DNA from: Bretschneidera sinensis
Taxonomy: Eukaryota; Streptophyta; Magnoliopsida; Brassicales; Akaniaceae
DNA length: 64,000 nucleotides
Assembly: GCA_023935145.1 (NCBI GenBank)
Contig: CM043700.1
Span: 98,498,400 to 98,562,399 of the forward strand
Direction: 5' to 3'
The position numbers were made by a program, and so were the translations under genes. The notes below the pieces were generated by a model. It was given only the letters and a program-made list of their open reading frames with translations, made no database searches and was not told the origin of the DNA. Position 1 is the first letter of the stretch, and the number at the start of each line of letters is the position of its first letter. Shown here in pieces: positions 1,528 to 40,065 of this stretch.

Positions 1528-1656
1528 GGTTAAATAGTCATTTTGGCCACCGAGCTTTGCCCGTTTTAACATTTTGGTCATTATAATTTAAAACTATACA
1601 ATGTGAGGATTAGTATTTGTAAAAATTTACAAACAAGCCACTCCCATCAATGATTT
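1528..1656 (+). repeat. MULE-1 left terminal inverted repeat
   Basis: It pairs over 129 bp with the reverse complement of 22768-22896, with scattered mismatches, many of them C/T or G/A. The repeat ends inward at CATCAATGATTT. In MULEs the terminal repeats hold transposase binding sites and often the promoter of the element's genes. Confidence 0.93.
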
Positions 1657-2158
1657 TGTCCGGTACCAAACGAAAAAGTGTTGTGGCTTATTTAAAACTT
1701 ACATAGAGCCTAATAAGCGCCTAATCAACATTTTAGGTGGATGAAATGTCTCATCACGTGAGAGATTGTACGTCTGAAGGGAGACTAATGGTTAGGCATT
1801 CTTACTCCATACCAGTCTCAAAGGTTGCAAAGGAACGAAAAACCATAGGCGAGAGTGAAAATTTCGTGCATTTTGGATTTTATTGTTACTCTCATCTCAG
1901 ACATTCTTATAATGTTGTTCAAATTCTTCTTCAAACACGGTGGAGACATTGAGAGTGAGGGATTTTGGGTGTGGTTTGAGTCAAAATCCGTGTCGTCCAA
2001 GCAATTGTAGGGTAAGGGAAAAGGATACCATACATTTGGGATGCAGAGGTTGTATGAGATAAGAAGAGGACCTAATGATGGTTCCCCTATTTACAGTAAG
2101 TAGATATTTTCATTTGACTTTCGTTTTTCAAATATCTGATGTAAGTAATTTTTTATGA
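1657..2158. other. MULE-1 subterminal region, no gene
   Basis: Non-coding part of MULE-1 between its left repeat and the inserted PIF element. It is probably leader sequence of the MULE transposase gene, whose coding part begins at 17119 beyond the insertion. Short open frames here have no recognisable product. Confidence 0.5.
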
Positions 2159-2678
2159 GGTATGTTTGGGTAACAGTTTACAATTTTCAGTGTTTGAAAA
2201 CCGTTTTCGAAAATAAAAACTGAAAACAGTTTTCTGAAGAAAACATGTTTGGATAACTGTAACTCGAAAACTGTTTCCAAAACAGAAAACAGTGAAATGT
2301 TGTTTGGATAATCTAATTTTGAAAACTGATTTGAAAATAGAAAACTGCTTGGATACACCTTCTTGTAATTGTTTTCAGTTTTCAGTTTAAATTTGAAATC
2401 TATATTAATTTTATTTCTCATATTTACTAAATACAATTTTTAGCACACACCAAATACTTGAAAATAATTATTAATATTTTATTTTTAAAATATTAAGTTT
2501 TTTAATATACCATGGATCAAACATTGAAAACTCATTTCCCTCGTCATATCAAGCATGTTTGTTTGTTAAATTAATTCTAAAAAAATTAAAATAAGAAACA
2601 TAACACAACTTTCAAAATTTGATAAAATGTGAATAACCAACCCATCATTCTTCTTGGAAAATGGTTCAATATCTAAAA

Positions 2679-3674
2679 TGTTATTATTTGTCTAAGGTTC
2701 AAACAGGTCCAACCATGGCTTGAAAATGGTTAAAGTCCAAACCAAAGGTGGAGTATCAAATTTCAACAAGTTAGAAGACTGCACACATGTGTGTGCATCA
2801 ATTTGGAGCAAGGGAAGGCCATGCGCACTAGTGTGCGCACTTCTGCACACAATCAGGGAAGTGTGCACATAGCAGCAGCATCAGCATGCACCATGGTGCC
2901 CAGCAACCAACACCATGGCATCCATAATGGTGTGCTGTAGGACCACATCAGTGTCGTGGCGCCTAGAAGCCAACACCATGGCGTCCAGAAGGTGTACAAA
3001 GGTGCCCTGCCCAGCGCCATGGCGCCCCCTGTTGAGCGCCTAGGCGCTTGGCAAAGGGCTGCACACATGGACAGCCTGTTTTAAGACCCTTTTAAGTGTG
3101 TGAGTGCAAGGTTAAAATGAACAACACCACTTGGGAAGTGATGAAGGGCTATGATTAAGTGGAGATCATGATCAAAGGGTGGAAATTGATTCACAAGAAT
3201 GTCCAAGAAGTGAAAGGCAATAAAAGGAGTTCCCAAGCCTCATTTTTCACATATATAATACAACACATACAAGACACTCTTTGAGATCAATTGTAATACA
3301 AGAGAGAATTGTGTGAGAGACATAAACACAAGAGGGACTCTTTGTAGTGAGGCTGGTTGTAAAAAAGAGAGAGTAGTATAGAGAGAGAGCATTGTAATCT
3401 TCTTTCTTCTCTTCTTGGTTTCTTTAAGAACTTGAGCTTTTTGAAGGGGATTACTGTAACTTGTAAGAACCTTTTTTGATTAGTGTAGAGAGTTCGGAGG
3501 AACTCACGGGGACGTAGGCGCATTGTCGAACCTCGATAACAAATTGCTTATCTTATTTCTTTCTTTGATTTTCTGTTCTTGTGTTCGATTACTGAAATTC
3601 TTTCTACAAGTCATTCTAGACTTGGGTGTTTAGAAGATCACCACCTGGGCATCTTGTCAAGGTGATTTCCAACA
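2679..3674 (+). repeat. Copia-1 5' LTR
   Basis: It starts TGTTATTATTTGTC and ends CCAACA. It contains two copies of a ~63-bp GC-richer unit (CCATGGYGCCCAGMARCCA motifs, about 2890-3020) where the 3' LTR has three. Visible differences from the other LTR are mainly transitions, as expected for an old methylated copy. Confidence 0.95.
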
Positions 3675-3675
3675 G

Positions 3676-3690
3676 TGGTATTAGAGTTGC
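3676..3690 (+). promoter_or_regulatory. Copia-1 primer-binding site
   Basis: TGGTATTAGAGTTGC lies one base after the LTR end and is a close variant of TGGTATCAGAGC, complementary to the 3' end of initiator methionine tRNA, the usual plant copia primer. Confidence 0.8.
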
Positions 3691-3914
3691 ACAGCTGGTT
3701 ATCGGAGCAAGAAGTAGAAGGTGACGGAGCCAAGACTCCAAGAATCAAAGATCAACATCTTGGGTGATTCAAGAACGGTGTAAAGATCAAGATCCGATCG
3801 TGTTCTTGAAGGTTGATTCAAGAACGGTGTTAAGATCCATCTTTGATCTATGTTCTTGAGGTTGAAGATAGCATTTATGGGTAGTGCATAAATTTGGGAT
3901 CTTGTCTGCAAAAG

Positions 3915-8001: not shown

Positions 8002-8069
8002 TTGGTGACTCAAGCTGAGTTTGGATCCTGAATCTTTCTGCACAATGGTTCAGGTTTTTTGAACACTTA

Positions 8070-9143: not shown

Positions 9144-9148
9144 TAAAA

Positions 9149-13448: not shown

Positions 13449-13450
<2 letters not shown>

Positions 13451-13556
13451 CTATTTCAAGTCCTAATTAAGAATTTAAGACACTTCTAATGTTAAGAACA
13501 TATTTAATCCCCTTGCACAAAAAAAAAAAAGAGTCTAGTCAAGTGACACAATATAT

Positions 13557-15315: not shown

Positions 15316-15405
<90 letters not shown>

Positions 15406-17118: not shown

Positions 17119-20100
17119 ATGCTATGTTCCATAGAGAGTAAAAAAGATGGGTTATTTACGTTGAAGTTTCACCATGTAGGGAGGTTGATATTTGATAAGG
17201 TACATATAGGAGGTGAAGTAGGCTATTTTGATTGGTGTGATGAGGATAGGTTGTGCCTTTTAGATATAAATGAAACGGTTAAGGATATTGAGCATGATGG
17301 TTTCATTAAATATTATTAGTGAGATCCTAAAAATGACCTTAGTGATGAAGGTGGCTTACTGCCAATGAGAACTAATTCTGACGTCTATTTAATGTCAACT
17401 AGTGTGCCAAATAGCATGGTAATTGAGGTGTTCCTAGAGCACCTAACTCTTGAGAAAATAATGGAGCAATATAAGTTAGATGTTGAGAATATTTATGATA
17501 AGATGGATGAGTGCTTTAAGGATGAAAATTATTTTCTAATAGCTGATAATGAAATTAATAATTTTCATTTGCCAAACAAGGCTGTTGTGATTGAGGAAAT
17601 ACCTGATGGAGATGATAATGTCTTATCTAATTCACAATCTGTTAAGGATGCACATTTGATGATTGAATATGTAACTAAGAATGTCATAATAGTTAAGCAA
17701 TCTGTTGTGGGGGACAATATGATAGATGAATGTAATAGGGAGCCATCTGTGATAGAGGGCAATATGAGGGATGAATTACTTGGAGAGCAATATGTAAGAC
17801 ATGATAATGTGATGGATGAGTCTGGTAGAGAGCCATATATGATGGAGGGAATATAAGGGATGAATTACTTGGAGAGCAATCTGTAAGGCATGAGAATGTG
17901 ATGAATGAATATGGTATGGAGCATTCTAATAGGGATCAATATAGTAGGGAACAAACTGGTATGCAGTAATCTAGTAGGGGTCAATATAGTATGGAGCAAA
18001 CTGTTAGGAAACAATCTAGTAAAAAGCAAAGTGGTAGGGATCAATTGTAATGGAAAACATATTGATAGATGAATATGTTAGGGATACATATGAATAGGCT
18101 GATGATGTTGGAGATAAAGAGGCTGATGACAGTGAGGATTCTGATTTCAATGAGTCTGACAATGGCTTCAGTGACAACGATGATGCAGATTTTCAAAGTA
18201 ATGTTGATCCAAGACTAGAAAGGGATATCATGAGTAGAAGTGGGAAGGCAATGAATGATTCAACATTTAGGTTTTATGCAAATGAATAAGATGATCTTAT
18301 AAGTTGTAAATTTGATGGAGACTCAAATGATCTACATAGCATGGGCAGTGGTTCTAATGAAGATTTGAGAAGACATCATACTGGGGAGTGGAGGGATGTT
18401 GACATGTCTAATCCAAATTTTGAGTTAGGAATGAAGTTTAGGGATATTGTCCAAATCAAAGGGGTAATTGATGCATATGAAATAAAATGAGGCTTCAGTA
18501 TTAGATACATAAAGTTTGACAAGAACAAAGTTTATGCTAAATGCAAGGTAAGTTGTCCTTGGAAGATATGAATTAGCAAGACACCTAATTCTCCTATATT
18601 TATGGTGAATACCCTTGTGGAGAAGCACACATGCGCTAAGTCAAGGAATAATAAGAGGTTGTCTTCAAAGAGATTACGTGATCTTTATGTGGAGTCAGTC
18701 AGGATTGATCCCAAGTGGCCTATACGTACATTTGCTGCTGCTATTATGAGGGATCATAATATAGAGGTTGCTTATCCAAAGTTGTAGAGAGTAAGAGACA
18801 AAGACCTAGATAAGATTAATGGATATGATAAGCAACAGTTCAAGAGACTGCATTCTCATGCAATAGAGTTGAGAAAAAAAAAATCTAAGGATTACTACAA
18901 TTATCAATTTGGATGGGTTATTGTTTGAGAAGATGCATGCTTGTTTGGATGCTTACAAGAAAATGGTTTCTTGTTGGATGTAGACCATTTATTGGAGTAG
19001 ATGGCTGCTTTTTAAAAAGAAGATATGGGGGTTAGCTATTAACTGTAGTTAGAGTCGATGCTAATAACAGCATGTGCCCTATAGCCTATGTTGTGGTTGA
19101 AATTAAGTCCAAATACTCTTGGATTTGGTTCTTAAAGTTATCGTCTTGGGACTTCAACATGAAAAACTGCTTTAAATGGACTTTCATGTCTGATAAATAG
19201 AAGTTAAGATGAATTCATTAAAAAATGTTTCATTACACAAATTGAAAGTGAATATTATTATGTACTATTGATATCTATTCTTCTTTTACATGGATTTGTT
19301 CCAGCACTTGATGAGATGTTCCCACTAACTGAGCATAGATTTAATGTGAGGCATATGTACTCTAACTTCAAAAAGCTTCACCTAGGGAAGGCCCTCAAAG
19401 ATGCACTATGGAGATGTACAAGAGCTATTTATATAGAAGACTTTGAGGATAATATGAAGGAGTTAAGGGAGCTTTCTAAAGAGGCATATCAGTGGCTATA
19501 TGATAAGTCACAATATCATTGGTCAAAGTCACATTTTAGGGAGCATTCTAATAGTGACATGCTTCTTAATAACCATTGTGAAGCCTTCAACAAAGTGATA
19601 TTGGATAGTAGAGAGTAACCCATCCTCTTAATGGTTGAATTAATTAGATGTAGGTTAATGAATATGATCTTGAACAAAAGGAACAAAATGATAAAGTATC
19701 AAAGGTACTTGTGTCCTAAGATTCAAAATAAGCTAGAGAAGAACAATGACATATTTAGAATTTTATGACCCTCACAATCTGGTGGATCAAAGATAGGGAT
19801 TTCAACCCGCTACAGTGATTAGTGATATGTTGTTGACATAATGGAAATGACTTGCACATGTATGAGATGTGATCTCACTAAATTACCATGTGCCCATGTA
19901 ATTGTTACAATTTGGGACAATAAGGAGCAACCAAAAAAATATGTTGATGAGTGCTAAAATAAAGGGATCTACATGAAAATATACTCCACAATCATCAATC
20001 CAATTAATGGACCTAAGTTGTGGCCCAAGAGCAACCTTGGTGACATTCACCCACACTTGGTTTAAAAGTGGCTTGTTGTGAGGCCTAAAAGATTAGGAGA

Positions 20101-20262
20101 GGAGATGTTGATGAAAATCTAAATGCAACAAAAATTCAGAAGATCTTTGTGATGTTTTGTGAGAATTTTGGTATGGTAGGACACAATAGAAGGAGGTGCA
20201 ATTTGGGTGATGATCCTAACCTAGAACCACCACCTTCTGTGAGAAATAGTGTAGGGAAATCT
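17119..20262 (+). pseudogene. MULE-1 transposase (MuDR/mudrA type), broken
   Basis: The N-terminal domain (17119-17319) has the plant MULE start KFHHVGRLIF...VHIGGEVGYFD. A long acidic linker with ~90-bp tandem repeats follows (about 17360-18050). The DNA-binding domain (about 18400-18640) has FELGMKFRD, the CKVSCPW pair and a closing HTC. The catalytic MULE domain includes GVDGCFLKRRYGG (about 18975-19015, first Asp), FMSDK (19180-19196, second Asp) and NNHCEAFNKVI (19568-19605, Glu). A SWIM zinc finger CTCMRCDLTKLPCAH lies near 19852-19896, and a degraded zinc knuckle ending GHNRRRC at about 20180-20202. In-frame stops appear in the catalytic and binding domains (for example after RRYGG and after FMSDK), so it is dead. 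It would normally bind the 129-bp ends and cut them. Confidence 0.92.
17721..17960 (+). repeat. ~90-bp coding tandem repeat in the transposase linker
   Basis: Units start near 17721, 17811 and 17900 (GATRGATGARTNTGGTAGRGAGCC motif), encoding repeats of REPxMxEGNxRDELLGEQ. The third unit has lost one base, which causes the frame to end at 17856. Degenerate shorter units continue to about 18040. Confidence 0.8.
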
Positions 20263-22130: not shown

Positions 22131-22577
22131 TCACAGTACAATCACTTTTTTATGTAGATAATATGCCAAAATCCAAAAAAAAAAAAAGCCTATGCAAATC
22201 CCAGAAATGTAGCAGCAAGTCCTAAAAAACATCTCCTTTGACCAATCTCTAACACTATCCCTCTCCATTTTAAGAATCTTTCGAAACAAACCAATCACGA
22301 GCTGACTAGACCGATCATCTAGAGGATCATCATATAAAGCAAAGAATTGACATCCACCATGCTAATGCAACCAAGGAAACAATAGAAATGGCAGTTAGTG
22401 CCAGACGTAAAAAAAACAGAGCATAAAGGAGTGAAAAAATAGAAATATTCTTACCCAATGGAATCTATAACCAAAAAATCTCCTCCCTTTGTTATTCTCC
22501 GTCCAGGATGTTTTTAAGACAACAGTTGCACCACAACGACATATGCTTGTGCTTGAGATTATATGTGTGTTTGACAT
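22131..22577 (-). CDS. Small GRF-type zinc-finger membrane protein carried by MULE-1
   Basis: Two exons on minus: 22577-22455 and 22361-22131, with donor GTAAGA and acceptor ATTAG, giving 117 codons plus TGA with no internal stop. The start ATG 22577 is the first ATG in frame. Exon 1 encodes SICRCGATVVLKTSWTENN and GRRFFGY, and exon 2 opens with GGCQFFALYDD. This is the GRF zinc-finger pattern (CxCG, GRRFF, C..F). One of the four expected zinc Cys (after GRRFFG) is Tyr37. Residues about 92-111 are strongly hydrophobic (GFFFFWILAYY), a C-terminal membrane segment often seen in plant GRF proteins. It lies antisense to and convergent with the transposase, 0.2 kb inside the right MULE end, so that end probably supplies its promoter. 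The role is unknown; GRF fingers in other proteins bind single-stranded DNA or RNA. The exon model is mine and unverified. Confidence 0.72.
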
Positions 22578-22767: not shown

Positions 22768-22896
22768 AAATCATTGACGGGAGTGGCTTGTTTGTTAACT
22801 TTTACAAATGTTAATCTTCACATTGCATAGTTTAAAATCTCAGGGACCAAAATGTTAAAACAGACAAATCTCAATGGCCAAAATGGCTATTTAGCC
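22768..22896 (-). repeat. MULE-1 right terminal inverted repeat
   Basis: Reverse complement of 1528-1656, ending ...CTATTTAGCC. The duplicated target ATATCAAGGC follows at 22897-22906. The ATG of the GRF gene is about 190 bp inside this end. Confidence 0.93.
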
Positions 22897-23037
22897 ATAT
22901 CAAGGCATTTTATTTGACGTATTTTTTCTTAAAGAAAACAAGATACCACAAATTTGGTAAGTTTATGGAGAATTTATTAGAGAATAAAAACTTGTTGATC
23001 AATGGATTTTTGTCAACAAGAAAATAAATGACCATTA

Positions 23038-25441: not shown

Positions 25442-28164
25442 GGGAGGAATCGAGCTTCTCCTAGAGTGGGAAAAGGAGAAATGTCCTAACTATTGTGGTA
25501 CATCGTTGGGACAATTTTATGATTGGGATAATTACAATTTTGAACCCTCTACTATGGCAACCAAATTGTAGTCCGAACCTGTTATGTGGCCTCGTTAAAG
25601 AGAAAATGCAAGGCGTGTATCCATCAAATAGAATATAAGAGGGATGACTCCAAGACTTAAGTACACCTGACTATTTTCGGCATTAATAGAATTGGTGCCG
25701 TCATTAGGAATGAGAGCCAAACTTATTTCTGTTCAATATGCCATCCAAGAAAATTCCAACACGAAATACCACGCATATGATTTCTGAGGTCAACTTGTCC
25801 GAATTACCACCACCCCCATCTTTGATGGAATGGCCTTATCGTGGCTCGGGGAGAAACAACTTAACCGAGGTAAAAAAAAAAGAGTGGGCCCCACTTAATC
25901 AGTAGCCTGGTTCACACTTGAACCAAATAGTTCGACGAGAAACTCATGAGATAGACCTTAACGAGCCTACCATTAGATCCGAGTACAATGCTCTCCAGCA
26001 CCGACTTGAAGAGGTGGTTGCACGCCTTAGATGAGTCAAACCAAAAAGAACTCGAAATCATCAGTCTACTGTCTGAACTGCTTACACCACCCGAAAGACT
26101 ATCGAGCTAGTGCCTTAGCATCGGAATAGCCGACCCAAGCAGGGAAGTTCAAGTATGGGACAAAATCTGAGGGTTTCTTCGGGACAAGGGAGAACCGAGT
26201 CAATATAGCCCCCGGCGGAGTCCTCGACATTCAATTTAAGATGATGAGTCTGTCTCGAACTCGCACCCATCCAAAAGACAACAAGAACAAGACATGTCTG
26301 AGGTGAGAATGCAATTAAAAGAAATGAATGAGTGCATTGGGCTCACCATCTAAGCCACCCAAGGAAACATCTTCGATGAGATTAGACTTGTAGGCAACCC
26401 TTTCTCCCAAGAACTCATGGATAAGAAGATACCTCCAAATTTTAAAATGCCTCACATGGAGCCATACTCAAGGAAAACATGTCATATAGAGCACATAGAG
26501 ATTTACAAGTCTCTGATGTTTCTCCATGGCCACTTAGAGGCAACAACAATGACGTGTTTTTTAGGTTGCCTTTAGGGCAATAAAATCATTTGGTGAGCTC
26601 AATTAAATTTTTGCTACACACTTCTTCAGTAGCCGAGGTCCCAAAAAGACTATAAAAATCTTGCTAAGTATAACTCAGCCCTTCGTGACTACATCTCACA
26701 ATTCACCTTGGTTATGGTATAGGCAAGGGACATAGATCAAAATGTGGCAGTCATAGCCTTCACTAATGGCCTCAAATCTTCTGACCTTAGCTATTACTTC
26801 TCCAGGAATCCGTTACAAACTATGTTGGCACTTCTTGGTAAAGTAGATGAGTTTGTGATCATCGAAGGAGACCAAGCCTTTTGCAAAAGAAGAGAGGACA
26901 CTTTGACGAGAAAAAAAAGAAAAAATCCTAAAGAACATAAGTCTGGGAGTGATCAGAAAAAAAGAGGACAAAATGATGTCCGAAGAAACAAAAAATTTAG
27001 GAGCTCCTTGAGGATACGACACTTAGACTCCTTTCAACACCTCAAAGGCTAACCTCCAAATGGAGATAGCAAGCCAAGACATCATAAGTGGCCTCCCAAG
27101 ATCAAGACTCTGACCGAAAAGAGAGACATAAACCATTTTTTCACCTCCACAAGGACCACGACCATGACACAGATGAATGCATATGTTTGAAGGATGAAAT
27201 TGAAAGCTTGATATAGAGAGGATAATTAAAGAAGTTTGTAAAGATAGAATCGAGGAGAAGCACGAGCCGAAGAAGTTCAGACTGTAGGGAGAGGAATAGA
27301 CCAAGACAAATTCTAGGTAAGAGAGAGAATAATAGAAGACAGTGGACCTTGAAAAGGATGTCAAATAATGCCCCAACGATTGGTGCCATCAGAACTATCT
27401 TTGGGGGGACAATGTTTGGAAGAGAGCATATGCCTGCTTCTTAGGATCAGTTGAAGGGCCCACAAAGAAGACGTAAATTGATCAAACCATCAGCTTCTTA
27501 AATGTGGGTCTTTAAGGAGTAAAGTTCTCCTATGATGACATAGTTGTCGTAACTCGTAACCTTGGTCATTTTAAAGAATCTTGTTAGAAAATGGGTTATC
27601 CCGAGATATATTGTACTTTGATTCCTTTAGGACGAAGAAAATGTCGAAAGATCGCCTAGAATTAGCAAAATACACCTTACACAGGTTCTTGGGTGACTTA
27701 GTGTACCCAAAAGGAAGCATAGAGCTACCAGTGATAGTAATAACCTTACCTTGTCAAACAACCATCCTGATCATAGATCTCCATTCTTCGTACAATGCAG
27801 TCCTTAATTGACCAGGGATGAACTCCATAAAAGCAGTGATTTTGACATACCATTTGAAAATGAGGTTCCAAACAGAAAATGGGGTTCCAAACAGAAAATG
27901 GAGTAGGAGAGATGAAGGGCAACCAAGCTACAGGCCGAACCTATTATTTGGCCTTATTGAAGGGAAAAATCAAGGTAAGTGTCCATCAAATAGAAGATAT
28001 GAGGGATGAATCCAAGACCCAAGTACACCCGACCTATTTTCAGCATCAATAGGAGGAATTGGACCTCTACGAGAGTGAGTAAAGAAAAAATGTCCCAATT
28101 ATTATGGTACATCGCTGGGATAATTTTGTGATTGCGATAATCATATTTTTGAACCCTCTACTAT
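25442..28164 (+). mobile_element. Rearranged gypsy (Tat-like) remnant with permuted end repeats
   Basis: A gag-protease body (about 25740-27880) is bounded by two pairs of direct repeats in mirror order. Segment A occurs at 25442-25555 and 28053-28164; segment B occurs at 25556-25690 and 27916-28052. The order is A-B-body-B-A. B encodes, in place at its right copy, the gypsy pol stretch around NQATGRTYYLALLK. The left B copy runs into AATTGGTGCCGTC, a primer-binding-site-like motif that precedes gag in this group. Both A copies contain the outer end of the MULE-2 inverted repeat. The structure is not a normal LTR element; I infer an aberrant recombination. Confidence 0.6.
25740..27880 (+). 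pseudogene. Gypsy gag-protease polyprotein remnant
   Basis: An opening MPSKKIPTRNT lies near 25739, followed by many stops. The gag core is recognisable at 26395-26900: KIPPNFKMPHMEPYS, then ALRDYISQF and AFTNGLKSSDLSYYFSRNP, the order seen in Tat/Ogre-type gag. DHDTDECICLKDEIESLI (about 27155-27215) is the conserved gag C-terminus. The aspartic protease region (about 27560-27810) retains ENGLSRDILYF in place of the usual VDNGSS.DIL, then GSIELPVIVITLP and SSYNAVLN. Reverse transcriptase, RNase H and integrase are missing. Dead; lineage assignment rests on these motifs only. Confidence 0.75.
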
Positions 28165-28224
28165 GGGTCAAGTTTCAATTTGGTCATTTCACTTTCAATT
28201 TCGACAAATTAGTCCCTCTACTAT

Positions 28225-31200
28225 TATAGGTACCGCTCTTATCCGCTTGAGACCTATGCATTCCAATGCAACTCCCCTTGAAGAAGGTGGATATGGCTGA
28301 GGTATAGATTATGATGAGTAGGCATATGAAAATGAGTGAAACCTATTAAGTCTAATACAAACCCTTTATAAGTTGTAAGGAGGCTCCAGTGATGGGTGCA
28401 CTTTTAATGTATTAGACAAGGGTCTGTTTGTCACCAAAGTACAAAGCAAGGATGATAGGTAAGGAGCCGCCACTTGACCTTGAAAGGGATCAAATTCTTT
28501 GTCATTAGTCTACGAGAGAAATTCCAAGGGTTGAAAGATTTGGATATAAGAGAGTGAGGATTTAAAGGTCCCTCTCTTACCTAGACCGAAGTCTAGCCCT
28601 TTGTGTTTTAAGCAAATTGATTGAAATTTTGATTCAAGTATTATTACCATACACTAATAATAAAGACAAGTACACATTTTTCAATTTATATTCAGACAAA
28701 ACGACACTAAATATCAAATTTAAAGTATTGCAGTAAAATTAAGCATGTAAAGGAAATGAATTACTTTAACTAAAAAACAAAGGAAATATTAAAGCTACTT
28801 GCAAAATTTGGATTAAAAATGAGAAGTAAATTAAAGTGTGTTCATTTAGAATAAGTTGATTAATTATGGATTAGGACAAAGTTATTTTTAAACTAGATGA
28901 ATTAAATTTGAAGATTAAATTAAATATATGTGATATGTGTGCGGATTAATCTAAGTGCATGTAGGTGCGTGTGAGGTGCGCACAAAAGCATGCACATGTG
29001 CGCAAGATGCATGCAAATGTGTGCAAGATGCACACAAAAGTGCGCACATGTGTGTGTGTGTATGCAAGTGTGTGCGCAAAAGTGTGAACGTCTGTTCAAG
29101 TGTGTGGGATTGTGTGCATATGTGTTCAATGTGTGTGCAAAAGTGTGAACCTGTGTGGAATAGTGCGTACATGTGTACAATATGCGTATAGAAGTGTGCA
29201 CATGTCTGCAAAGTGCGTACAGAAGTGTGCATGTGTGTGCAAAAGTGTGCAAAAGTGCAAGTGTGTGGGATAATGTGCACATGTGTGGGATATCGTGAAC
29301 ATGTGTTTAAGGTGTTCACAATAATGCACACCTATGTACAAGTGTATGGGACAGTGCACACATATGTGCAAGGTGCGTGCAAAAGTGTGCACATGCATGC
29401 AAGTGTGTGCGAGTTTGAATTAGATGAGTTGAAACTAAGCTAATTAAACTTATGCAAATTAAACTTAAAGATTAAACTAAGCTACTTTGAAGAGAAGATT
29501 AAAAAATAACTAGTAACATTTTTAACGGACCAAAGGGGGACAAAAATTAACAAGGACCAAGGGGGTCCAAAATTCTTCCTAAGGAATTAAAGTGTACATG
29601 TAGTTAATGGCGACTTAAAGTAAAACATCTAACTTATAAGACACAAATATTCTTAAGGTACTAAACTAAAAGAAATGACATTAAAACTACCATTAACTCA
29701 ATATTGCATTTCTTAAAGGAAGCCTACATTATAGCAAGCAACTAACTAAAGAAAAACATATAACTAGTGAGGATAAAATAAACACTAAGAAACTAGTGAA
29801 TATCTTAGATGAAATTTATTAAATGAGAAAAATTAATCTAGTTCATTTTCAAGGTGGTTTGAACACATAAGCCATACTAACAATTTATTTTTCAAGAAGA
29901 AGAAGTTTAACGAACCTTATTTGGCTAAGGAAAATTTTCACGCGTAAGGATAATCCTCTGAGATCCGCACGTTCTAGTGGACTTGATGAAGTGGAAAGAT
30001 TAACCTTGATGAAAGATTAGAAGACCAAAACCAAAGGGTGGCCGAAAATGGAAGGAAGAACACACTCTTGTTCTTCTTTGTTTTCCTCTTATGTTTCTTT
30101 GTTTCTTTTCTTGTTTGTGTGCTCTATTTTGATTATTTTACTTCTCTCTTTGATTTTTCTAAACTTCTCTCTTTTTTCTATCTAAATTTTCTCTTTTCTC
30201 TCTCTTTTTTGCATTACTTTGCCTTAGTTTGTGCTTGTGTTCAACAAAGGGGGGTATTTATAGAAGGATATGGGTTGTCCAAGGGATTAAAAAATTAAAA
30301 AAAATTGAGAAATAAAGAACATGGCCAGCTATGGAGAAGAGAAGGGAAAAGAAGTTTCAACTTTTGAGGCGAAAGGTGTTTCACTTTTGGGGTGTAAAAG
30401 TGGGGCTAGAGAAGATGAGTTGTGGTAAACCAAGTGAAAAGTGAGAGGAAAAAGCCTTTTAGGTGGCTAGCCATGGGGAAGAGAAAATGAATCTTTTGAG
30501 GTAAAAATTGAAGAAAAAAGTTTTCAAAAAGGTGAAAAAGAAAGTACAATTTGAAGTTTTTCAATAAAGCAAATGCAAAAGCAAAAAGTGAGGAGAAACT
30601 CCCCTTGGTGTGGCCGGCCGTTGGTGGGGGGCGGGGGAGGGGGAAAGACACAATTTTTATTTTTTTTTGGAAACATAATAAAGTGAAAAGGCTTAAGAAA
30701 AAAATGTGTGCAATTACAAAGCAAAAGAAAGGAGAAAAAAGGCTTCACACTAAAAAAAAAAAGAAACTATTATTTTTTATGTACTATTTTTTTAGGTGGA
30801 AGCTTAATAAGGTAATTTCCAATTAGCTAAGCAAAAGCAGAAGAAGAGAAAACTCCTTTTTGGTACACATGACTGTCCAAAAAGGGAGAAAAATTTGTTG
30901 TTTTTAAATGAATAATTACTATTTTCTAGGTGAAAAATGTTTTATTTTGTGTGGAAAAAAAGTAGCATTTGGTACAAAATAAGATGAGGGAACCTATGAG
31001 GGAGAGGTGAGTTCAAAAAGCAAAAAGAAATAGAGAAATTTCCTCCTTATGGCCAGCCACATAGGGAAAGAAAGAGACAACCTTTTGTAAAAAGAGAGTT
31101 TATCTTGAGAAAAGTGAATCAATCAAAAGGTGTCAAGCGGAGGGTAAAATTGAAAGTTCACCTTTAAAAGTTAGAAGTCTTCTTGGGCTTGAAATTTGGG

Positions 31201-31492
31201 TTAAAGATGTTTGAGCTTAGTAAAAATCAATGGGCTTTAGTGGGTTTTGGATTGGACCAAAATGTAAATGAAGACTTTGGTCTTGAATTTGGTTGAATCA
31301 AATAAGACCCAATTGATTTAAACCCAGAGTGCATTTAATGGATTGAACAAAAAAGGACTGCAATTGGTTCTACTCCTCAATTAAATTCAAACCTCCACAT
31401 TTACCAAGTCTAAGCGCACTAGGATCAAAGATTCGTCATAGAAACCCGCACGTAGTCCTTTTTAAAATTTTGGAACAAAATGAGTGTCTACA
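28225..31492 (+). mobile_element. Solo LTR, 3.27 kb, inserted in the MULE-2 left inverted repeat
   Basis: It interrupts the MULE-2 repeat exactly and is flanked by the perfect 5-bp duplication ACTAT (28220-28224 and 31493-31497). The right end TGAGTGTCTACA is a typical LTR end; the left end TATAGG would be TGTAGG but for one transition. The motif GGAGCCGCCACTTGAC near 28467 resembles the GGAGTCGCCAC block common in very long LTRs of plant Tat/Ogre gypsy elements. No PBS, coding domain or second LTR is present, so LTR-LTR recombination removed the rest. It contains the GT-rich tract at 28960-29412 and otherwise no gene. Confidence 0.75.
28960..29412 (+). repeat. GTGTGCACATGTGTGCAAG-type alternating repeat
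   Basis: About 450 bp composed almost wholly of TG/CA steps in loosely repeating units of GTGTGCAxxxGTGTGCACATG. Strict purine-pyrimidine alternation over long runs makes it prone to Z-DNA. It explains several overlapping Cys/His-rich open frames on both strands, which are not genes. Confidence 0.85.
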
Positions 31493-31655
31493 ACTATGAA
31501 AACAATACAATTTCACTCTTCCCCTAGACTCCATCTAGCTCCGTTAACTTACCAATCACGTGATCCTCACATAGGGGATAGATGTCACTCCCTCATTACA
31601 TCTTGTGCCAACGACCTTAAAGGCACATGTGGAGGGGCTCATATAACCTAATAAA

Positions 31656-32201: not shown

Positions 32202-33032
32202 ATGGAATGTCATAAGTACTCAATGTTTATTCATTATGGTGGTTTTATCAACAAAAAAAGAAAGACCTCGAAGGCATGTGGAAAATTAACTATTTTTTAT
32301 AACAAAAATATTGATAGAATATGTGTGAGTCTAGTTGCTAATATGCTTCATAGAATGAATGTGGTTGATTTGGAATGTTTCCACTATGTACCACTTGGGA
32401 GATAGTCTTAGGAATCTAATCACAAACAATGATTTGAATGTTATGCACTAGTACATTAGTAATTTAGGGGCTGATAATGTGCATGTATATGTTGAACATA
32501 CATGGAATGATGCAATGAAAATGGATGCAAATGATATGGGTGAATGCAGTAAACCTCAAATTCCAAAACTTGAAGAGATTTTTCTATTACTATTTGCTCA
32601 ACATAGTATAGTGAGGTTAATGACAGTGCATATGTTGAGGTAAAGGGTCCAAATAGTGCATTTGTTGATGTTCATGTGGGAGTCAATGAGGCTAGTGGGG
32701 ATAATGAGGCAACTAGTGGGGGAAATGATGATGAATGTGAATCTGTTCGTGTAGAAGTTTGTGGAGATACTAGGGATAAAGGGAAACAACCTGTATAAGG
32801 TGAGGGTGAGAGTGAAAGTGAGGTTGGGGTTAGGGTTAATGATCACAATGAGGATGAATATGAATTTGATGTGAGCTTAGACTTTTACTTAAGGGATGGT
32901 GATTTTGATGCCATTGCTGATGATATATTTGATGAAAATGTTGATGAACCAATAGGAGATGATGAAGTGTCAGGATTTTGGGGTGTAAATGAACAAAGGG
33001 AATGGGATGAAAAGGTTATACAAATTGCTAGA
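32202..33032 (+). pseudogene. MULE-2 transposase, N-terminal part only
   Basis: The start MECHKYSMFIHYGGFI matches the HHGG-type N-terminus of plant MULE transposases. GKLTIFYNKNIDRICVSLV and a FHYVPLGR end follow, and after a stop, VHVYVEHTW (about 32485). An acidic linker (SLDFYLRDGDFDAIADD, 32870-32925) follows, ending in a stop near 33032. The DNA-binding, catalytic and SWIM domains seen in MULE-1 are absent. Stops at 32403 and 32798 confirm that it is dead. Same domain family as the MULE-1 gene but clearly diverged. Confidence 0.78.
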
Positions 33033-33399: not shown

Positions 33400-34650
33400 G
33401 TTATGTAGGTGATTGTTAGAGAACTGGTACACCAAAATAACTCGACTAAGATGTTATTAATGAACATTTTACTGGATGTCAATAGTTTTATTACGTTGTA
33501 GTTGCACAAGTGATCCTTGGACTTGAAGCACCATGGATATCTTGTGTATGAGTCATCATGCTTTAATACTACCTAACTGAGATTCTAATTATGGGTCACA
33601 AAAGGGTAGTAATTGGGTGTGACCACTTATGCACAGAGGTATATGAGTGTATAATAGAGGATCCATCACTCTCTGTAATAGAGAAAATGTCTTATGTGAT
33701 ATGATTAAGTCATAACTTGGAAATTTCTTGGCCAAGGTGGGGTGGAAATTAGAAAAGATTTTTAATTTCACCATTTAAGTTATAGACTTGAGATTGAGAT
33801 ACATAGGATTAAATAATTAAGGCTTGATAGTAAATCCATGGCTTAAGGTTTAATCAAGAACATTACATGATGAAATGATTGAATTGTATGGTAAATGACA
33901 CCAGAAAGGTTAACATTAATTCATATTGTTTGGGTAGTCATGATATATTGCTATATAGCAATCTTGACTTGTAGAAGCCTTAAGAATTAATTTTAAATCA
34001 AAGAGAGAATTACACATAATTTTTAATTCAAATTAAAATTAAAAATATTTTTAATTAATTGGATAGGATTCAATTGTTACATAAATGTTACAACCTACTG
34101 CTAGTGCAATATTGAACCTAAAGAGTCACGCACAATTGGGAAATTGCAAGATTAACGAAAACTAATAAGTTAATGGAGAGATTTCTCATAATTAATTAAA
34201 CTAGGGTTTAATTGCAATTCTAGAAATTCTAGAGCTTTGAGGAGTGAAGACACTAAATAAATGTTTTATTTGATAGAAACTCGAATGCTTTATTGTTGAA
34301 ATTGTTTTTTTTTTAGTGTCTCTCTCTCTTTCTAAAATGTGATTTTTCAAAGCTAGCACTCAAGGAATTTTCAGTCAGCCTTAGTCCTCCTATTCACGTG
34401 ATGTTCGACATCTTGAAAAATGAGATCCTTATTCTTGGTTGCTTATTTGGATATTCTTAGAGCTAGACATTTGAATAGCTTGTGAACTCTTCATCGAATT
34501 CTCAACCAAAATATTCATAAAGGTATAAATCTTTAACCTTGTATGGAGATGGATTATCATTCTTAATAGATTCATGGAGTAATTCATGAGATTAAGTTAC
34601 TTTTTAAATTAAAAAAAAATTCGTTGCGTATCTTTGACAGTAGACTTTCA
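33400..34650 (+). mobile_element. Copia-2 probable 5' LTR
   Basis: The right end is set by ...AGACTTTCA at 34650 followed by ATGGTATCACAGCC, close to the methionine-tRNA primer site of plant copia elements. The left end is not resolved; TGTTAGAGAACTGGT near 33415 is the best TG start. No 3' LTR copy is found, so the element is truncated. Confidence 0.45.
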
Positions 34651-34651
34651 A

Positions 34652-34664
34652 TGGTATCACAGCC
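34652..34664 (+). promoter_or_regulatory. Copia-2 primer-binding site
   Basis: TGGTATCACAGCC, one or two changes from the TGGTATCAGAGCC primer site, one base after the presumed LTR end. Confidence 0.6.
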
Positions 34665-35680
34665 AACTCTATGAATTATTAGAATGATTTTGATTCTACT
34701 GTTGCGACTATAAAATATATGATGTTGTAAATTCTAGTGATTGAAAATTCATAATCTAATAGTTAGATTAAGATTTATGAAACCATAGGTTAAGAGAATT
34801 TAAGAAAGAGTTCTTGAATTATTTATTGTCATGAGATGATAATAGAGAATTTTTAAATTGCTTTCAAGTGAATTAATCAATAGAGATTGATTATGAACAA
34901 TTTAGTTGATCAAAATATGATTTTGGATCGAAAGAAAATTGTTTTGAGAAGAAAATTCACATAGAAAATGTGAAAATTTGCAAATATCGAAAGGACAGTT
35001 GATTGTCCCCTTAGGACAGTCTATTTTTCCCTTATGTACCTAATTGAACAACCAAATAGAAGTTAAAGACAATCAATTATGTTTTGGACAAAATCTTTTG
35101 ACATTCAACTTTCCAAATGGACAGTCGGCTATGTGATGTAAAAATCAAATTTTCATGTTTTTAAAGAGCTTTGGATTTTTTTTTAAAATTAAAACATGTT
35201 TTTTAATTGAAATTAAATGTTTAATTTTTATCTTAAAACGGATTTAAATTAAATTTATTTATTTATTAAGAATTTTTCTCAATTTTAATTATCAAAAGTT
35301 TTAAAAGTTGGAGTTTGATTAGGAATTGAAGCTCCAAAATCCTTATTGCATTGGAATTATGAATTCTAATGAACACAGAACCATAATCTTATTTGGAATA
35401 GGATTAAGAAAAATGTTTGGAAAACTAATGGTATTAAGATTGAAATCTAATAAAAAAAAAGCAATAATTAGAATAGAATTGTTATTATTTATTTTTGCTA
35501 TTTGATTGTATGAGTGGATAACTATTGGACTTAGACGTTAGCAATTCGTTAATTTTTTTGGTATTATTTTTGGTGATTCAATTTTAAATGGGATTTGTAT
35601 ACCTTGCTATCTCTTATTTCTCTTAATGTGAATTTTTATCTCCCTCTAAAATAATTCCCATTGACTTCTAATCAAGGTTT

Positions 35681-35762
<82 letters not shown>

Positions 35763-36700
35763 ATGTATGTAAAGTTACTTAGAGAAAGATAGGATTTTAT
35801 TGAGGTGAATAAAGGAGTGCAGAAAGAAGTATGGAGGACCATTTGAAGGTTGAAGACCCAGGAATGTATTTGATATATTCATGTAATAATTACCTAGGAT
35901 TTGACTAAATGATTTACTTAATTGGCTCAAGTAAATCACACTTAGAAAGTCCATAGTCATCCACCTAAGGTTTTATATGCATGAGATGTATGTTTACTAG
36001 GCATGAGATGTATGCATATTTTTCCATGTGATTTGATTATATACTATTAAATGTATATGATGCATATTAAATGATGTGATCTAAACGTAAAGACCTAAAT
36101 CCTTCACGCGCAAAATTTTAATATTAAGTTGTAAACGAAAATCATTAGGAATAATTGTTCGTAACCTTCCACCATTATACTTAATATGTGAAGTTTCTTA
36201 TGTGTGTAAATTTGTTGTGTCACCACTAGATTTACATATGTTGGAAAATCATAGTTTCTATTAAAACATGTGATGTACACGAAACAAACAATATAGTTTT
36301 TATTTTTTAGTTTTATGTCACCACAAGGGTTATATCACTAATTTACACTTGTGAGATATGATGGGTTTAACTTAACTAAAGTGAATATGATTTGTTGTGC
36401 CACCACAATGTCATATACATTTAAGAGACTAAATTATGAGTTTGAATTGCATGAGATACAAATGATAAAAGTTATCTACCTATCAAATACATTATTAGTT
36501 TATTGTGTTACCACAAGACTTAATGTACAAGTGATAAGATCCTGATCCCCACTAGAAAACCTTTAAAAGGGGTTTTTTGCTTTTCATATTGAGGGTTGTG
36601 GGAATTGAAAGGAATACTGTGAGGCGCCATTTATAATAAATTCCAAATCTTTATGGTAGTTAATAAAGTGATTAGATGCATATTTTATCTGTTGTTACAT
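34665..36700 (+). other. Copia-2 long untranslated leader
   Basis: No coding domain. It includes a TA microsatellite (35682-35758) and, at 36214-36515, four spaced copies of a TTGTGYCACCAC-like motif. A polypurine-like CTTTAAAAGGGG lies near 36561. Confidence 0.45.
35682..35758 (+). repeat. TA microsatellite
   Basis: About 38 uninterrupted TA units. Confidence 0.95.
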
Positions 36701-36739
36701 TGTATATCGCAATGACTAAACCCACTATCATCCATACTT

Positions 36740-37260
36740 GATGCAAACAACTAACTAGTCCAATCTCCTAGATTGCCTAAAGAATTTGAGAATCGTTCTC
36801 AATTATGAGAAAATGGTTTTTGTTCTTGATAAGTCGCTTTCAACAACTGTTGTTGAAAATATTTTAGAAAAAAGACATAGCTACTTTTGAGAAGTGGCAA
36901 GAGAATAATTTGTGGGCTAGGTGCTACATGCTAACATTTATGTCTAATGAGCTTCAGAAACAAAATGACAAGATGAAAATTGCTTATGCAATATTGTTTA
37001 ATCTACAAGAGTTGTATGATGAACATAGTTGCAATGCAAGCTTTTAAATATCTAAAGACCTCTTTAAGGCTATTATGCCCAAAGGATCATTAGTCTATGT
37101 ACATAGATTAAAGGTGATCAACTATATTAAGAAATTAGATTGATTCATTTTATTATGGATGCAAATTAAGTAGTGAATTAATTCTTCAAGGGAATAGGCA
37201 AAAAGAATTTATGGGGTTAATGAATACTGCAAATGAGATAAACTAGGTAAAAACTTGTGT
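36740..37260 (+). pseudogene. Copia-2 gag remnant
   Basis: Frames around 36770-37200 read NYEKMVFVLDK, then LWARCYMLTFMSNELQKQND, AILFNLQELYDE and KAIMPKGSLVYVHRLKVIN, in the order of the plant copia gag (UBN2-type) domain. Two or more frameshifts and stops are present. No zinc knuckle, integrase or reverse transcriptase follows; the tandem repeats start instead. Confidence 0.72.
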
Positions 37261-37319
37261 TTTCTTTTGGGTAAATTTTCAAGTATATGTACAAGCAATG
37301 TGGTTTATAATCCTTTGTT

Positions 37320-38074
37320 GAGTAATGAATGGTTGTATGCAAAAATCTTCTCAATGAGGCCAAGCACCTCAACCTTCAACTAATGCTGGATTTACTAGGG
37401 TTTTAGGATCAAGTAAGTCAAGAAGCAGAAGCAATAGGTCTAAAATCCACTCCTAGGTCAGTTATACATTTGTACTTTTAACAAAAGTGTATTCAAAATG
37501 GTGGTTGTTGAGTAAGAATACTCGATTGGTGACTAATGAATGGCTCTATCCAGTAATGAATATTTGATTAATGAGTAATGAATGGATGTATTCAAGAATC
37601 TTCTCAAGGAAACTAAGCATCTCAACCTTCAACTAATTCTGGATCTATTGGGATTTCAAGATCAAGTAGGTCAAGAAGTAGAAGCAATAAATCTAAAAGC
37701 TTAGTCTCAGGTTAGTTATAAGTTTATACTTTTAATGAAGTGTATTCAAAATGGTGATTATTGAGTAAGAATATTTGACTGATGACTAATGAATGGTATT
37801 TTAGTGTTGAATATTTGACTGTTGAGTAATGAAAGGGTGTATACAGGAATCTTCTCAAAGAAACAAACCATCTCAACCTTCAACTAATGTTAGATCTATT
37901 GGGATTTGAGAATCAAGTAGGTCAAGAAGAAGAAGCAATAAGTCTAAAATTCAATCCTAGGTCAGTTATAAGTTTGTACTTTTCATGAAAGTGCATTCAA
38001 AATGGTGGTTATTAAGTAAGAATATTTGACTGGTGACTAAGGAATGGTTGTTTAGTACTGAATATTTGATTGAT
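37320..38074 (+). repeat. Three tandem copies of a ~251-bp unit
   Basis: Units start with GAGTAATGAATGG-like sequence at 37320, 37573 and 37824, and a partial fourth at 38075. Each contains CATCTCAACCTTCAACTAAT and AGGTCAAGAAGYAGAAGC. Divergence between units is modest. The serine/arginine-like frame RSRSRSNRSK inside suggests that the unit derives from the linker next to the gag zinc knuckle. Confidence 0.85.
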
Positions 38075-38149
38075 GAGTAATGAATACTTATATATTGTAA
38101 AAAAGTAGGTCTAGGTCAGAAGGACCTCAAGTGAAGCCATAAGAACCTC

Positions 38150-38490
38150 AAAAGCCAATTCAATGAGGTCAGATATTTCCATGAGGCCACCAGGAGCTGC
38201 AATGTGGCAACCATAAGCTGCAATGAGGCCAGAAAAAGCTCAAGTGAGGCCACAAAATTTTTTAAGGCTAATTGTGTATCAGTGAAGGTCAAGAGCAGCT
38301 ATAAGGCCACCGAAAGCTATCTTGAAGCTAATAAGAGTTGCCATGAGGCCATCAAAAACTACAATAAAGCCAAAAGAAGCTCAAGTGAGGCCACAAGAAC
38401 TTCAAATGCAAATTATGTATCTAGGGAGGTCAAGAACTGCCATGAGGCCATTAAGAGCTGCAATGAGGCCACCAAAAACTTCAAGGATTA
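38150..38490 (+). repeat. ~21-bp degenerate minisatellite (AGCTGCAATGAGGCCACCAAA)
   Basis: At least a dozen imperfect repeats of about 21 bp. Because 21 is a multiple of three, a frame across it gives a repeating SCNEATK/SCHEAIK peptide; I regard that frame as a by-product, though a coding origin is not excluded. Confidence 0.7.
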
Positions 38491-39293
38491 GACCTATGGT
38501 CAATTTACTATGTCTTGTTAGGATAATGCCACCAACACAAGGAAATTTGGCTCAATCATCATCTCAAAGTTGTTCATTAATTAGTGCAACATCTCACCAA
38601 ATTAGTGGGATTCATACTAAAGGATCAAAAAATTATTGAATGACTTTAATGGTGTTTTTTGTGGTTGTAATGACTTGTTTTGTGGAAACTAAGATAAGAT
38701 GATGGTGTGGAGACTCTAATTTTTTTGGACGTAAGCAAACCTTATTTGTAGGAGCACTGGTTCTTAATAGGAATATGGGAGAACATTTTGGCTTTTTGTG
38801 CACTATTTTGTGCTTACAATATATATCAAGTGCCTTCTTCTGTTTTATCATTAAATTGCTCAATTGGTCATTTATATTTGATTACTTTCTTGATAAATAA
38901 ATAATTATAGTTACAAATTGAAGAAAATCTAGAAATGTAATTTCATTTCTTGATACCATTTATAACTCCTTCAAGGGTGGCAAATTGAACATAAATATTT
39001 GGCTTAACACAACCTAGAAATTTTAAAGCAACACCTAGACATACAGAACCTAGAAATGTTAAAGCACAACCCAGAATCCTTCAAAGTTATCTCATTTCAT
39101 TTCTTGACAACATACAACTCTTTAAAGGCTAGAAACAACCAAAAAATATTAAAGACCCCAAATATTCAAAACATCTAAAAAATTGGAATCCCAAAAATTT
39201 GAAGCAAAAAAAATGAGAAGTCTCAAACAAACCAAAAAATGTAGAAACTTATGAAAATAAATTGTCTTTTATTTATCTTTTTCTTGTTCTTAC
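38491..39293. other. MULE-2 right interior, little recognised
   Basis: 38530-38640 has a Ser/Gln-rich frame (LAQSSSQSCS, IHTKGSKNY) that could be the C-terminal tail of the MULE transposase, by position and composition only. The rest is A-rich and non-coding, with duplicated phrases such as AACCTAGAAATKTTAAAGCA. Confidence 0.35.
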
Positions 39294-39510
39294 ATTCAGT
39301 CTCTTGCCTTAAAATCTTTCATCGCAAACTAGGAATGACTTGTTGTGCTTTTGTGCATATAGGAGGATCAAACCATGAAAAATGGTTGCAACCACCCCTT
39401 TGCCCGAAATTGTTGCACTTAATTAACTTTTTTCTTGGGTTTCCGTTTGTCCACAAGGTCTGCAATCAAGCTGGGAACCCGGATATGCAAAAAATTTCAG
39501 ATGATCTCAT
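39294..39510 (-). pseudogene. GRF-type zinc-finger gene of MULE-2, first exon, broken
   Basis: From ATG 39510 on minus the frame gives FCISGFPA, a TGA, then LQTLWTNGNPRKK; after a one-base shift it continues KCNNFGQRGGCNHFSWFDPP and CTKAQQVIPSL. This is the GRF zinc finger (CxCG.P..L.TSWT..NPGRRF..C.......C..F.W.D). The second zinc Cys is lost, and the stop and frameshift abolish the product. A donor GTAAGA follows at 39293. The gene sits about 0.3 kb inside the right MULE-2 end and is antisense to the transposase, exactly as in MULE-1. The downstream exon was not identified. Confidence 0.75.
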
Positions 39511-39676
39511 ATTGGAACACGTGCTCGTTTTTCTTTACAGTGTCTCTTCTGCAACATAAGTGAATGTGTGTAATAGTGAAGGAGAGAAGCTCACGACAAG
39601 ATATTTTGGGATTGGTGGAGAGTGATGAAGAAATATGAAGTGATGCATAAGGGATTTTGTGTGAAAAAGATGAAGT

Positions 39677-39836
39677 GATGCATAAGGGATTTTGTGTCGT
39701 AGAGAGTGATGGAGAAGATAGAAATAGTGTTATAAGATTTTTTAGGTCATATGAGCGATGCATAAGGGATTTTGTGTCGTAGAGAGTGATGGAGAAGATA
39801 GAAATAGTGTTATAAGATTTTTTAGGTCATATGAGC
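39677..39836 (+). repeat. 80-bp tandem duplication next to the MULE-2 right repeat
   Basis: Two copies (39677-39756 and 39757-39836) that look identical by eye, starting GATGCATAAGGGATTTTG. A third partial copy lies upstream near 39643. Identity suggests a recent event compared with the rest of the element. Confidence 0.88.
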
Positions 39837-40065
39837 TCCTCCACCCATGCCTTTGAGATCCTAGGTGAGATATGTAATGGGGAAGTGACATCTATCCTCC
39901 ACTTGAATAGCACATGATGAGAGAGTTTATGGAGGTAGATGGACTCTAACTGAAGGGTGATATTGCATCATTTTCATAATAAAGGGATTGATTTGTCAAA
40001 ATGGAAAGTGAAGAGACCAAATTGAAACTTTACTCATAGTAGAGGGACCAAAATGTAGTTATCCC
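39830..40065 (-). repeat. MULE-2 right terminal inverted repeat
   Basis: Its reverse complement starts GGGATAACTACATTTTGGTCCCTCTACTATGAG and pairs with 28134-28224 plus 31498-31655. It is followed by the TTTATGATT target copy. Confidence 0.82.

Follow-up and report, generated by a model that had tools for sequence, protein, structure and literature searches.

A plant MULE lineage probably constitutes a two-gene transposon carrying an inherited and selected GRF gene. In the genome of Bretschneidera sinensis, the arrangement of the two genes, their association, their near-constant spacing, their co-variation and GRF dN/dS values below 1 are established. The transposase of such an element would be read from the left end, with a small GRF zinc-finger gene on the other strand just inside the right TIR, and the GRF protein may often have a hydrophobic helix at its C-terminus. 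Both genes would have descended together, with purifying selection preserving GRF as the elements multiplied. The two elements of the window (the whole 64-kb stretch of DNA analysed), MULE-1 and MULE-2, would be decayed members of this lineage whose TIRs have diverged.

MULE-1 and MULE-2 in the window

1518..1527, no strand: MULE-1 left TSD, atatcaaggc
1528-22896: MULE-1, whole element, bounded by TIRs and TSDs
1528..1656, + strand: MULE-1 left TIR
18038..20146 (about), + strand: MULE-1 transposase, frameshifted; MuDR-type, MULE DDE, SWIM-like finger
22131..22577, - strand: GRF-1 gene, 117 aa, hydrophobic C-terminal tail; exons 22577-22455 and 22361-22131
22768..22896, - strand: MULE-1 right TIR
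22897..22906, no strand: MULE-1 right TSD, atatcaaggc
28125..28133, no strand: MULE-2 left TSD, TTTGTGATT
28134-40065: MULE-2, whole element; TIR of ~250 bp, left copy in two parts; TSD 8/9
28134..28224, + strand: MULE-2 left TIR, outer part
28225..31494, no strand: 3.3 kb of DNA interrupting the MULE-2 left TIR, a putative insertion
31495..31655, + strand: MULE-2 left TIR, inner part
32202..32570 (about), + strand: MULE-2 transposase N-terminal remnant, frameshifted
39226..39495 (about), - strand: GRF-2 gene, two stops
39818..40065, - strand: MULE-2 right TIR
40066..40074, no strand: MULE-2 right TSD, TTTATGATT

The sequence-only reading had proposed two real MULEs with unrelated-looking terminal repeats, and TIRs and TSDs were found for both. 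The MULE-1 TIRs are 129 bp long with 84% identity between left and right, and its TSD copies match at 10/10 positions, a match given by 6 of 20,000 random flanks. The MULE-2 TSDs, TTTGTGATT and TTTATGATT, agree at 8/9 positions; random-flank 9-mers with at most one mismatch were obtained in 192 of 20,000 cases. A second copy of the MULE-2 left junction is located at 25440-25557, where TTTATGATT is followed by GGGATAA, matching the right TSD at 9/9 positions. Each element combines long TIRs with a TSD in the 8-11-bp range, as expected of a MULE. The unrelatedness of their repeats also held, as four cross comparisons between MULE-1 and MULE-2 TIRs score 17-20, within the shuffle range (25-93 of 500 shuffles as high), with a single weak 32-bp BLAST match (E = 0.015).

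A rightward MuDR-type transposase had been proposed for each element, which stands for MULE-1 and not for MULE-2. The MULE-1 reading frame is disrupted by frameshifts, and its product matches PF10551 (E = 2.8e-9, 37.7 bits, cutoff 27.6) and, slightly below the cutoff of 19.6, the SWIM profile (18.8 bits). MULE-2 retains only an N-terminal remnant; a profile built from 50 MULE transposases of plants gives no match to a catalytic core there, and against the same 50 proteins the remnant does not clearly exceed shuffles. The remnant matches, at E = 8e-5, the N-terminal part of the transposase encoded by L035, another GRF-carrying element in this genome. Pfam searches with N-terminal fragments of the MULE-1 and MULE-2 transposases gave no MULE-related family. 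A copia gag suspected by eye at 36.8-37.0 kb was unsupported by Pfam.

The GRF genes reported as reading leftward from each right end were recovered at 22131-22577 (GRF-1) and about 39495-39226 (GRF-2), both pointing inward. GRF-1 contains a GT-AG intron of 93 nt and yields a spliced ORF of 117 aa, whereas GRF-2 is without an intron at that place. Matches to PF06839 lie below the 25.9-bit cutoff for both GRF-1 (E = 8e-4, 19.9 bits) and GRF-2 (E = 0.017, 15.7 bits), with no other Pfam family at E ≤ 1; elsewhere in the genome, all 20 of the PF06839 matches listed exceed the cutoff, including L017, which is of the window type. A profile built from 25 plant GRF domains matched the GRF-1 and GRF-2 positions when scanned against the window (next match E = 0.6), and the two genes align with a score of 98 that was reached by none of 300 shuffles. 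Two random loci in 64 kb occupied both right-end kilobases in antisense in 26 of 200,000 trials. The GRF zinc finger uses four cysteines as zinc ligands, of which three are kept in GRF-1 and three in GRF-2; the relatives L035 and L040 retain all four, which marks GRF-1 and GRF-2 as decayed GRF copies. A protein search with GRF-1 returned one candidate and none at E ≤ 0.001.

GRF genes and transposases across the genome

Genome-wide tests were confined to the window's own 1.21-Gb genome. The 150 GRF matches listed, from a larger number, merged into 142 loci; the placement test used 110 of these, without the 32 that form an array at C2:134.7-136.0 Mb, and set them against the best 150 transposase matches. 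Random placement was run 1000 times, with C8 assumed to be 99 Mb long and contigs beyond C9 1 Mb. Among the matches listed, 30 of the 110 GRF loci lie within 4 kb of a transposase, which is downstream and antisense in 30/30, and the nearest listed transposase is so placed in 36/36 cases within 10 kb and 44/46 within 30 kb. Random placement gave mean pair numbers of 0.11, 0.29 and 0.83 at these three distances (maxima 2, 3 and 5). Start-to-start distances of the pairs listed range from 1.9 to 3.5 kb and are mainly 2.57-2.94 kb; GRF-1 and the MULE-1 transposase form one such pair. Counted from the transposases, again among the matches listed, a GRF locus on the expected side and strand accompanies 14, 17 and 20 of the top 25 within 4, 10 and 30 kb, and 30, 36 and 45 of all 150. 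The 80 GRF loci without a listed transposase within 4 kb may reflect nesting, decay or transposases outside the best 150.

DNA around Pfam GRF matches contains a transposase in 8/18 stretches, antisense in 8/8, a count made over all stretches because their sorting into transposon-type and host-like followed the transposase result. In a hand-picked sample of eight further loci (ranks 2, 10, 17, 29, 38, 43, 47 and 53 of the GRF list), a transposase was found in three and a sense orientation in none. In the same sample, no transposase was detected within about 5.6 kb of L039 or of L043-L046, the latter being four loci of a more distant GRF subgroup. None of 25 long plant GRF proteins is fused to a MULE, MuDR or SWIM domain, a weak test since antisense neighbours are not expected to fuse; some of the 25 bear retroelement or Harbinger-type domains.

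Further elements with both genes were identified in the same genome. L032 to L035 are enclosed by TIRs of 81-94% identity, and L033, L034 and L035 each read TIR, transposase, antisense GRF, TIR, with 9/9 TSDs. The second gene is antisense and adjoins the TIR opposite the transposase start in MULE-1, in L032-L035 and in all 30 close pairs among the matches listed. GRF and transposase occur together in MULE-1, L025, L026, L027, L032-L035, L038 and L040-L042, so these are not Pack-MULEs, in which captured fragments of host genes take the place of a transposase; L031, with TIRs and GRF and no transposase, alone appears GRF-only.

Co-divergence, selection and alternative explanations

GRF and transposase distances are correlated over 11-12 loci (Spearman 0.75-0.78); values this high arose in 5, 0 and 5 of 5000 Mantel permutations. 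Values of GRF dN/dS fall below 1 in 35/36 canonical pairs and 15/15 measurable K-type pairs, the pairs not being independent of one another; 13/28 K-type pairs are saturated, and the exception is L041-L042 at 1.31. Two deep GRF groups account for part of the distance correlation. The tree of 27 GRF domains has support too weak for use. Both the co-divergence and the enrichment proposed in the sequence-only reading were thus found in this genome, supporting its view of GRF as a regular second gene of the lineage.

GRF loci and MULE transposases are both abundant here, and two repeats could lie near each other by chance, or MULEs could insert beside GRF genes. This is highly improbable given 30 close pairs among the matches listed against 0.11 by random placement; insertion beside genes would also leave strand and spacing unfixed, and in L033, L034 and L035 both genes are enclosed by TIRs and TSDs. 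An improbable reading, if less so, is that a host GRF fragment was captured by MULEs, perhaps repeatedly, and travels in Pack-MULE style with no role in transposition. MULEs frequently capture host genes, according to the available text of PMC6446971, the intron content of GRF-1 and GRF-2 differs, and some gene models fuse GRF to other transposon domains. However, identical side, strand and spacing in 30/30 close pairs among the matches listed, co-variation with the transposase and dN/dS values that mostly fall below 1 are unexpected under separate captures.

A selected second gene could instead act as a regulator or anti-silencing factor, like VANC, outside the cut-and-paste reaction, which we consider possible but rather unlikely. 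Many plant MULEs possess an antisense second gene, and VANDAL MULEs have an anti-silencing accessory gene (PMC6446971, available text). On the other side, the closest solved chains to the GRF finger by profile, NEIL3 (E = 1e-10), ZCCHC4 (0.008) and an AP lyase entry (0.03), lead to DNA-repair and rRNA-methylation enzymes, and a role at nucleic-acid ends fits at least equally. These three share the finger family with the transposon GRF, but their finger is part of an enzyme, whereas that of the transposon makes up much of a small protein. 

Within the main, two-gene reading, tail hydrophobicity is 1.99 in GRF-1 and 0.53 in GRF-2, and reaches at least 1.6 in 10/25 plant GRF proteins. L024 has a hydrophobic tail in the GRF frame; in L026, L032, L033, L039, L043 and L045 the tail is in frame with at least one stop before it, and in L035, L042, L044 and L046 it is broken or out of frame. 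The Zf-GRF of APE2 binds ssDNA (PMC6122073, available text). By analogy, and tentatively, the finger of the inherited GRF gene may bind ssDNA or nicked ends while the tail holds it at a membrane, possibly that of the nuclear envelope; the protein would then assist in processing ends, in reintegration or in localisation, a MURB-like role filled by a different protein.

Relation to known plant MULEs

That plant MULEs carry an antisense second gene is already known (mudrB, Abermu ORFR, PMD). As described in the available text of PMC9168764 and PMC6446971, maize MuDR (mudrA and mudrB) resembles the GRF elements in its long TIRs and in having transposase and second gene on opposite strands; in the GRF elements the second gene is a GRF zinc finger, set apart from MURB by description rather than sequence. 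In Abermu type II elements (ORF1 and ORFR), ORFR lies antisense between ORF1 and the 3′ TIR, a position shared with the GRF gene, and shows Ka/Ks below 1 (PMC9168764, available text). ORFR has no assigned function in that paper, whose available text leaves its role open, and it is distinguished from GRF by description, not sequence; "GRF" has no occurrence in the main text. Abermu elements without the antisense gene appear recently active in the same available text, suggesting that such a gene may be dispensable. Most MUDR-clade MULEs likewise have an antisense accessory gene, with a PMD rather than a GRF domain, and VANDAL/Hiun elements (vanB, vanC) are plant MULEs with accessory genes, one of them anti-silencing (both PMC6446971, available text); the VANDAL/Hiun proteins differ from GRF by name and are likened by description, not sequence. 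The term "GRF" is absent from the text of PMC6446971 and from the available part of PMC3310237. No report of a GRF second gene in a plant MULE was found in the literature searched, a body that leaves most subscription journals and Repbase outside it; where GRF was named with MULE, transposase or zinc finger, the available texts used it for a program or an NLR-associated domain, and other papers naming GRF were, by title, expression and methylation studies. Scanning viral and bacterial collections for MULEs gave 48 and 58 pattern matches, none of them a relative.

The role of the MuDR-type second gene is a long-standing question, which a second gene with a nameable, biochemically studied domain renders testable. 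GRF genes are usually counted as host genes in annotation, yet 8/18 stretches here hold an antisense MULE transposase; this fits, in this one genome, the earlier proposal that many annotated GRF genes may be MULE genes. Since the GRF gene accompanies the transposase and shows signs of selection, some of the GRF zinc-finger genes in plants belong to transposons. A broader view, which we hold as speculative, is that many of the GRF zinc-finger genes in flowering plants may be second genes belonging to an old lineage of MULEs. Such a gene would encode a helper, anchored in a membrane and binding ssDNA, that keeps transposition intermediates at the nuclear periphery; a different and widespread protein would then perform a MURB-like function.

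Structure of the two elements

MULE-1 and MULE-2, two decayed Mutator-like elements (MULEs), each carry a minus-strand GRF zinc-finger (PF06839) gene, designated GRF-1 and GRF-2.

Features of MULE-1 and MULE-2
1528-1656 and 22768-22896: MULE-1 terminal inverted repeats (TIRs), 129 bp, 84% complementary
2679-3674 and 8085-9143: LTRs of a copia-like element nested in MULE-1
13556-14873: inverted arms nested in MULE-1
About 18038-20146: MULE-1 transposase, matching 50 plant MULE proteins (best E 7.8e-80)
22577-22455 and 22361-22131, minus: GRF-1, two exons, spliced frame open for 117 aa
28134-40065: MULE-2
About 39495-39226, minus: GRF-2, frame broken by two stops

MULE-1 is flanked by a perfect 10 bp target-site duplication (TSD) and is ~21 kb long, a large share of which is nested DNA; its transposase is disrupted by frameshifts. 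The left TIR of MULE-2 lies in two pieces (28134-28224 and from 31495), both matched by the single right TIR, and its TSDs have 1 mismatch in 9 bases. A copy of the left junction at 25440-25557 carries the TSD form found on the right. Two short blocks (25440-25689 and 27918-28166) occur in swapped order, so that a second copy of the MULE-2 left junction lies 2.6 kb from the first. Elsewhere in the window, minus-strand frames at 57169-61415 resemble a cryptochrome gene by eye, and a 155 bp inverted repeat of 69% identity (43978-44126 and 55589-55737, 11.5 kb apart) encloses frames that by eye are gypsy pol-like.

The sequence-only reading described both elements as having a transposase reading rightward from the left end and a GRF gene reading leftward from the right end. 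This shared layout mostly holds, but a full MULE-2 transposase was overstated: a search with a plant MULE transposase profile detected no transposase core in MULE-2, where only an N-terminal remnant is present. This remnant does not clearly exceed shuffles when compared with the 50 plant MULE proteins; it matches the N-terminus of the transposase of L035, a GRF-bearing reference element elsewhere in the genome (E 8e-5), and has no match in 15 stretches without a transposase. Cross comparisons between the TIRs of the two elements fall in the shuffle range, except for one weak 32-bp match (E 0.015).

GRF-1 and GRF-2 both score below the Pfam curated cutoff and each retain three of four zinc ligands, as expected of relics. 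The spliced frame of GRF-1 is still open despite the broken transposase of MULE-1, with one zinc-ligand cysteine changed to tyrosine. A profile of 25 plant GRF domains found both places and no other window match below E 0.6. Judged by sequence, GRF-1 and GRF-2 are homologous to each other, and the closest to both are L035 and its relative L040.

Association of GRF and transposase genes in the genome

Searches covered the window's own plant genome (1.21 Gb, 550 contigs), in which the window lies at C4:98498400-98562399. The 20 Pfam GRF matches listed were covered by 18 ten-kb stretches, eight of which contain a MULE transposase (E <= 1e-6), antisense and on the downstream side of GRF in 8/8; the other ten contain none at this threshold. 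The GRF genes fall into two subtypes, canonical (as in L035) and "K-type", with KISESDKNKxxLYYSC. Inverted repeats enclose the loci L032, L033, L034 and L035, as well as the transposase-less L031, and were looked for but not found at L025, L026, L027 and L038. A search of 30 x 30 base positions around the TIR ends found 9/9 TSDs at L033, L034 and L035, and none at L031 or L032. L031 (6359-8935, oriented with GRF on the minus strand) has 2.6 kb between 93% inverted repeats, holding a GRF frame without a transposase, and is perhaps a GRF-only derivative.

A second set paired the best 150 rows of a genome search with the L035-type GRF, both window GRFs included, with the best 150 matches to a 96-aa segment of the L035 transposase, MULE-1 included. 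After merging, and excluding an array on C2, 110 GRF loci remained. The nearest transposase among the matches listed lies within 4 kb of 30, 10 kb of 36 and 30 kb of 46 of these loci, and is downstream and antisense in 30/30, 36/36 and 44/46 listed pairs, with start-to-start spacing mostly 2.57-2.94 kb. Random placement (1000 runs) gave means of 0.11, 0.29 and 0.83 pairs and maxima of 2, 3 and 5, respectively. Viewed from the transposase, a GRF gene lies within 4 kb of 14 and within 30 kb of 20 of the best 25 matches, and of 30 and 45 of the best 150. The pair counts are lower bounds because the lists take in the best candidates only, and the rates apply to this lineage rather than to all MULEs because the transposase query was itself taken from an element with a GRF gene. 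For this genome, the proposal that members of this MULE lineage regularly carry GRF as their second gene is well supported.

Of eight loci sampled from the L035-type GRF match list, three had an antisense transposase and none had a sense one. L039 corresponds to the right end of an L035-like element, its left side being taken up by other repeats, and copia DNA lies near GRF at L043 and L045, so nesting may hide some pairs. The excluded region (C2:134752491-135984904) has more than 30 partial GRF-like matches on one strand, mostly to query residues 23/39-69, in a 55-aa frame; several are ~22.3 kb apart, and others lie on C10 and C404. The region has the look of a long tandem array, whose resemblance to GRF may be due to chance.

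Co-variation of GRF and transposase, and dN/dS

L040, L041 and L042 align to L035 across transposase and GRF together (72-81%). Transposase and GRF distances correlate at 0.75-0.78 over 11-12 loci, a level reached by 5, 0 and 5 of 5000 Mantel permutations. This is in keeping with the anticipated co-divergence, but the split between the two GRF subtypes contributes to the correlation. By the Nei-Gojobori method, over about 53-89 codons and with pairs that are not independent, 35 of the 36 canonical GRF pairs have dN/dS below 1 (0.22-0.92), the exception being L041-L042 (1.31). K-type pairs range from 0.20 to 0.52 in all 15 that were measurable; 13 others were saturated.

Known second genes and a possible role for the GRF protein

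MuDR comprises mudrA and mudrB. In some Abermu elements, an antisense ORFR, to which no origin or function is assigned, lies between the transposase and the 3' TIR (PMC9168764). Antisense PMD genes are given for most MUDR-clade members by Dupeyron et al. (PMC6446971). The layout is already known from these precedents, and MuDR and Abermu resemble the MULEs here in their two-gene or antisense second-gene arrangement; the second gene of the MULEs here is a GRF zinc finger. The GRF version was not found among the papers listed from the literature searched, outside of which lie most subscription journals and Repbase.

In GRF-1, the finger and a linker are followed by a hydrophobic helix near the stop (hydrophobicity 1.99). 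A hydrophobic helix is in the GRF frame at L024, and in frame following at least one stop at L026, L032, L033, L039, L043 and L045; GRF-2 has a weak tail helix (0.53), and at L035, L042, L044 and L046 the helix is broken or not in frame. A hydrophobic helix is present in 10 of 25 plant GRF proteins, a set that includes several merged gene models. In three predicted plant proteins (P0067, P0072 and P0074), GRF is joined to PF09331/PF03384 (Sinapis) or PF04827/PF13359 (Tanacetum), the latter pair of which we take to be Harbinger-type; GRF may be carried by other transposons as well, or these may be merged gene models.

The solved chains nearest to the GRF finger are NEIL3, ZCCHC4 and an AP lyase entry, and binding of single-stranded DNA is reported for the Zf-GRF of APE2 (PMC6122073). 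From the tail helix, these nearest chains and the APE2 Zf-GRF, we infer that the second protein of this MULE lineage may be a membrane-anchored helper that would bind single-stranded DNA.
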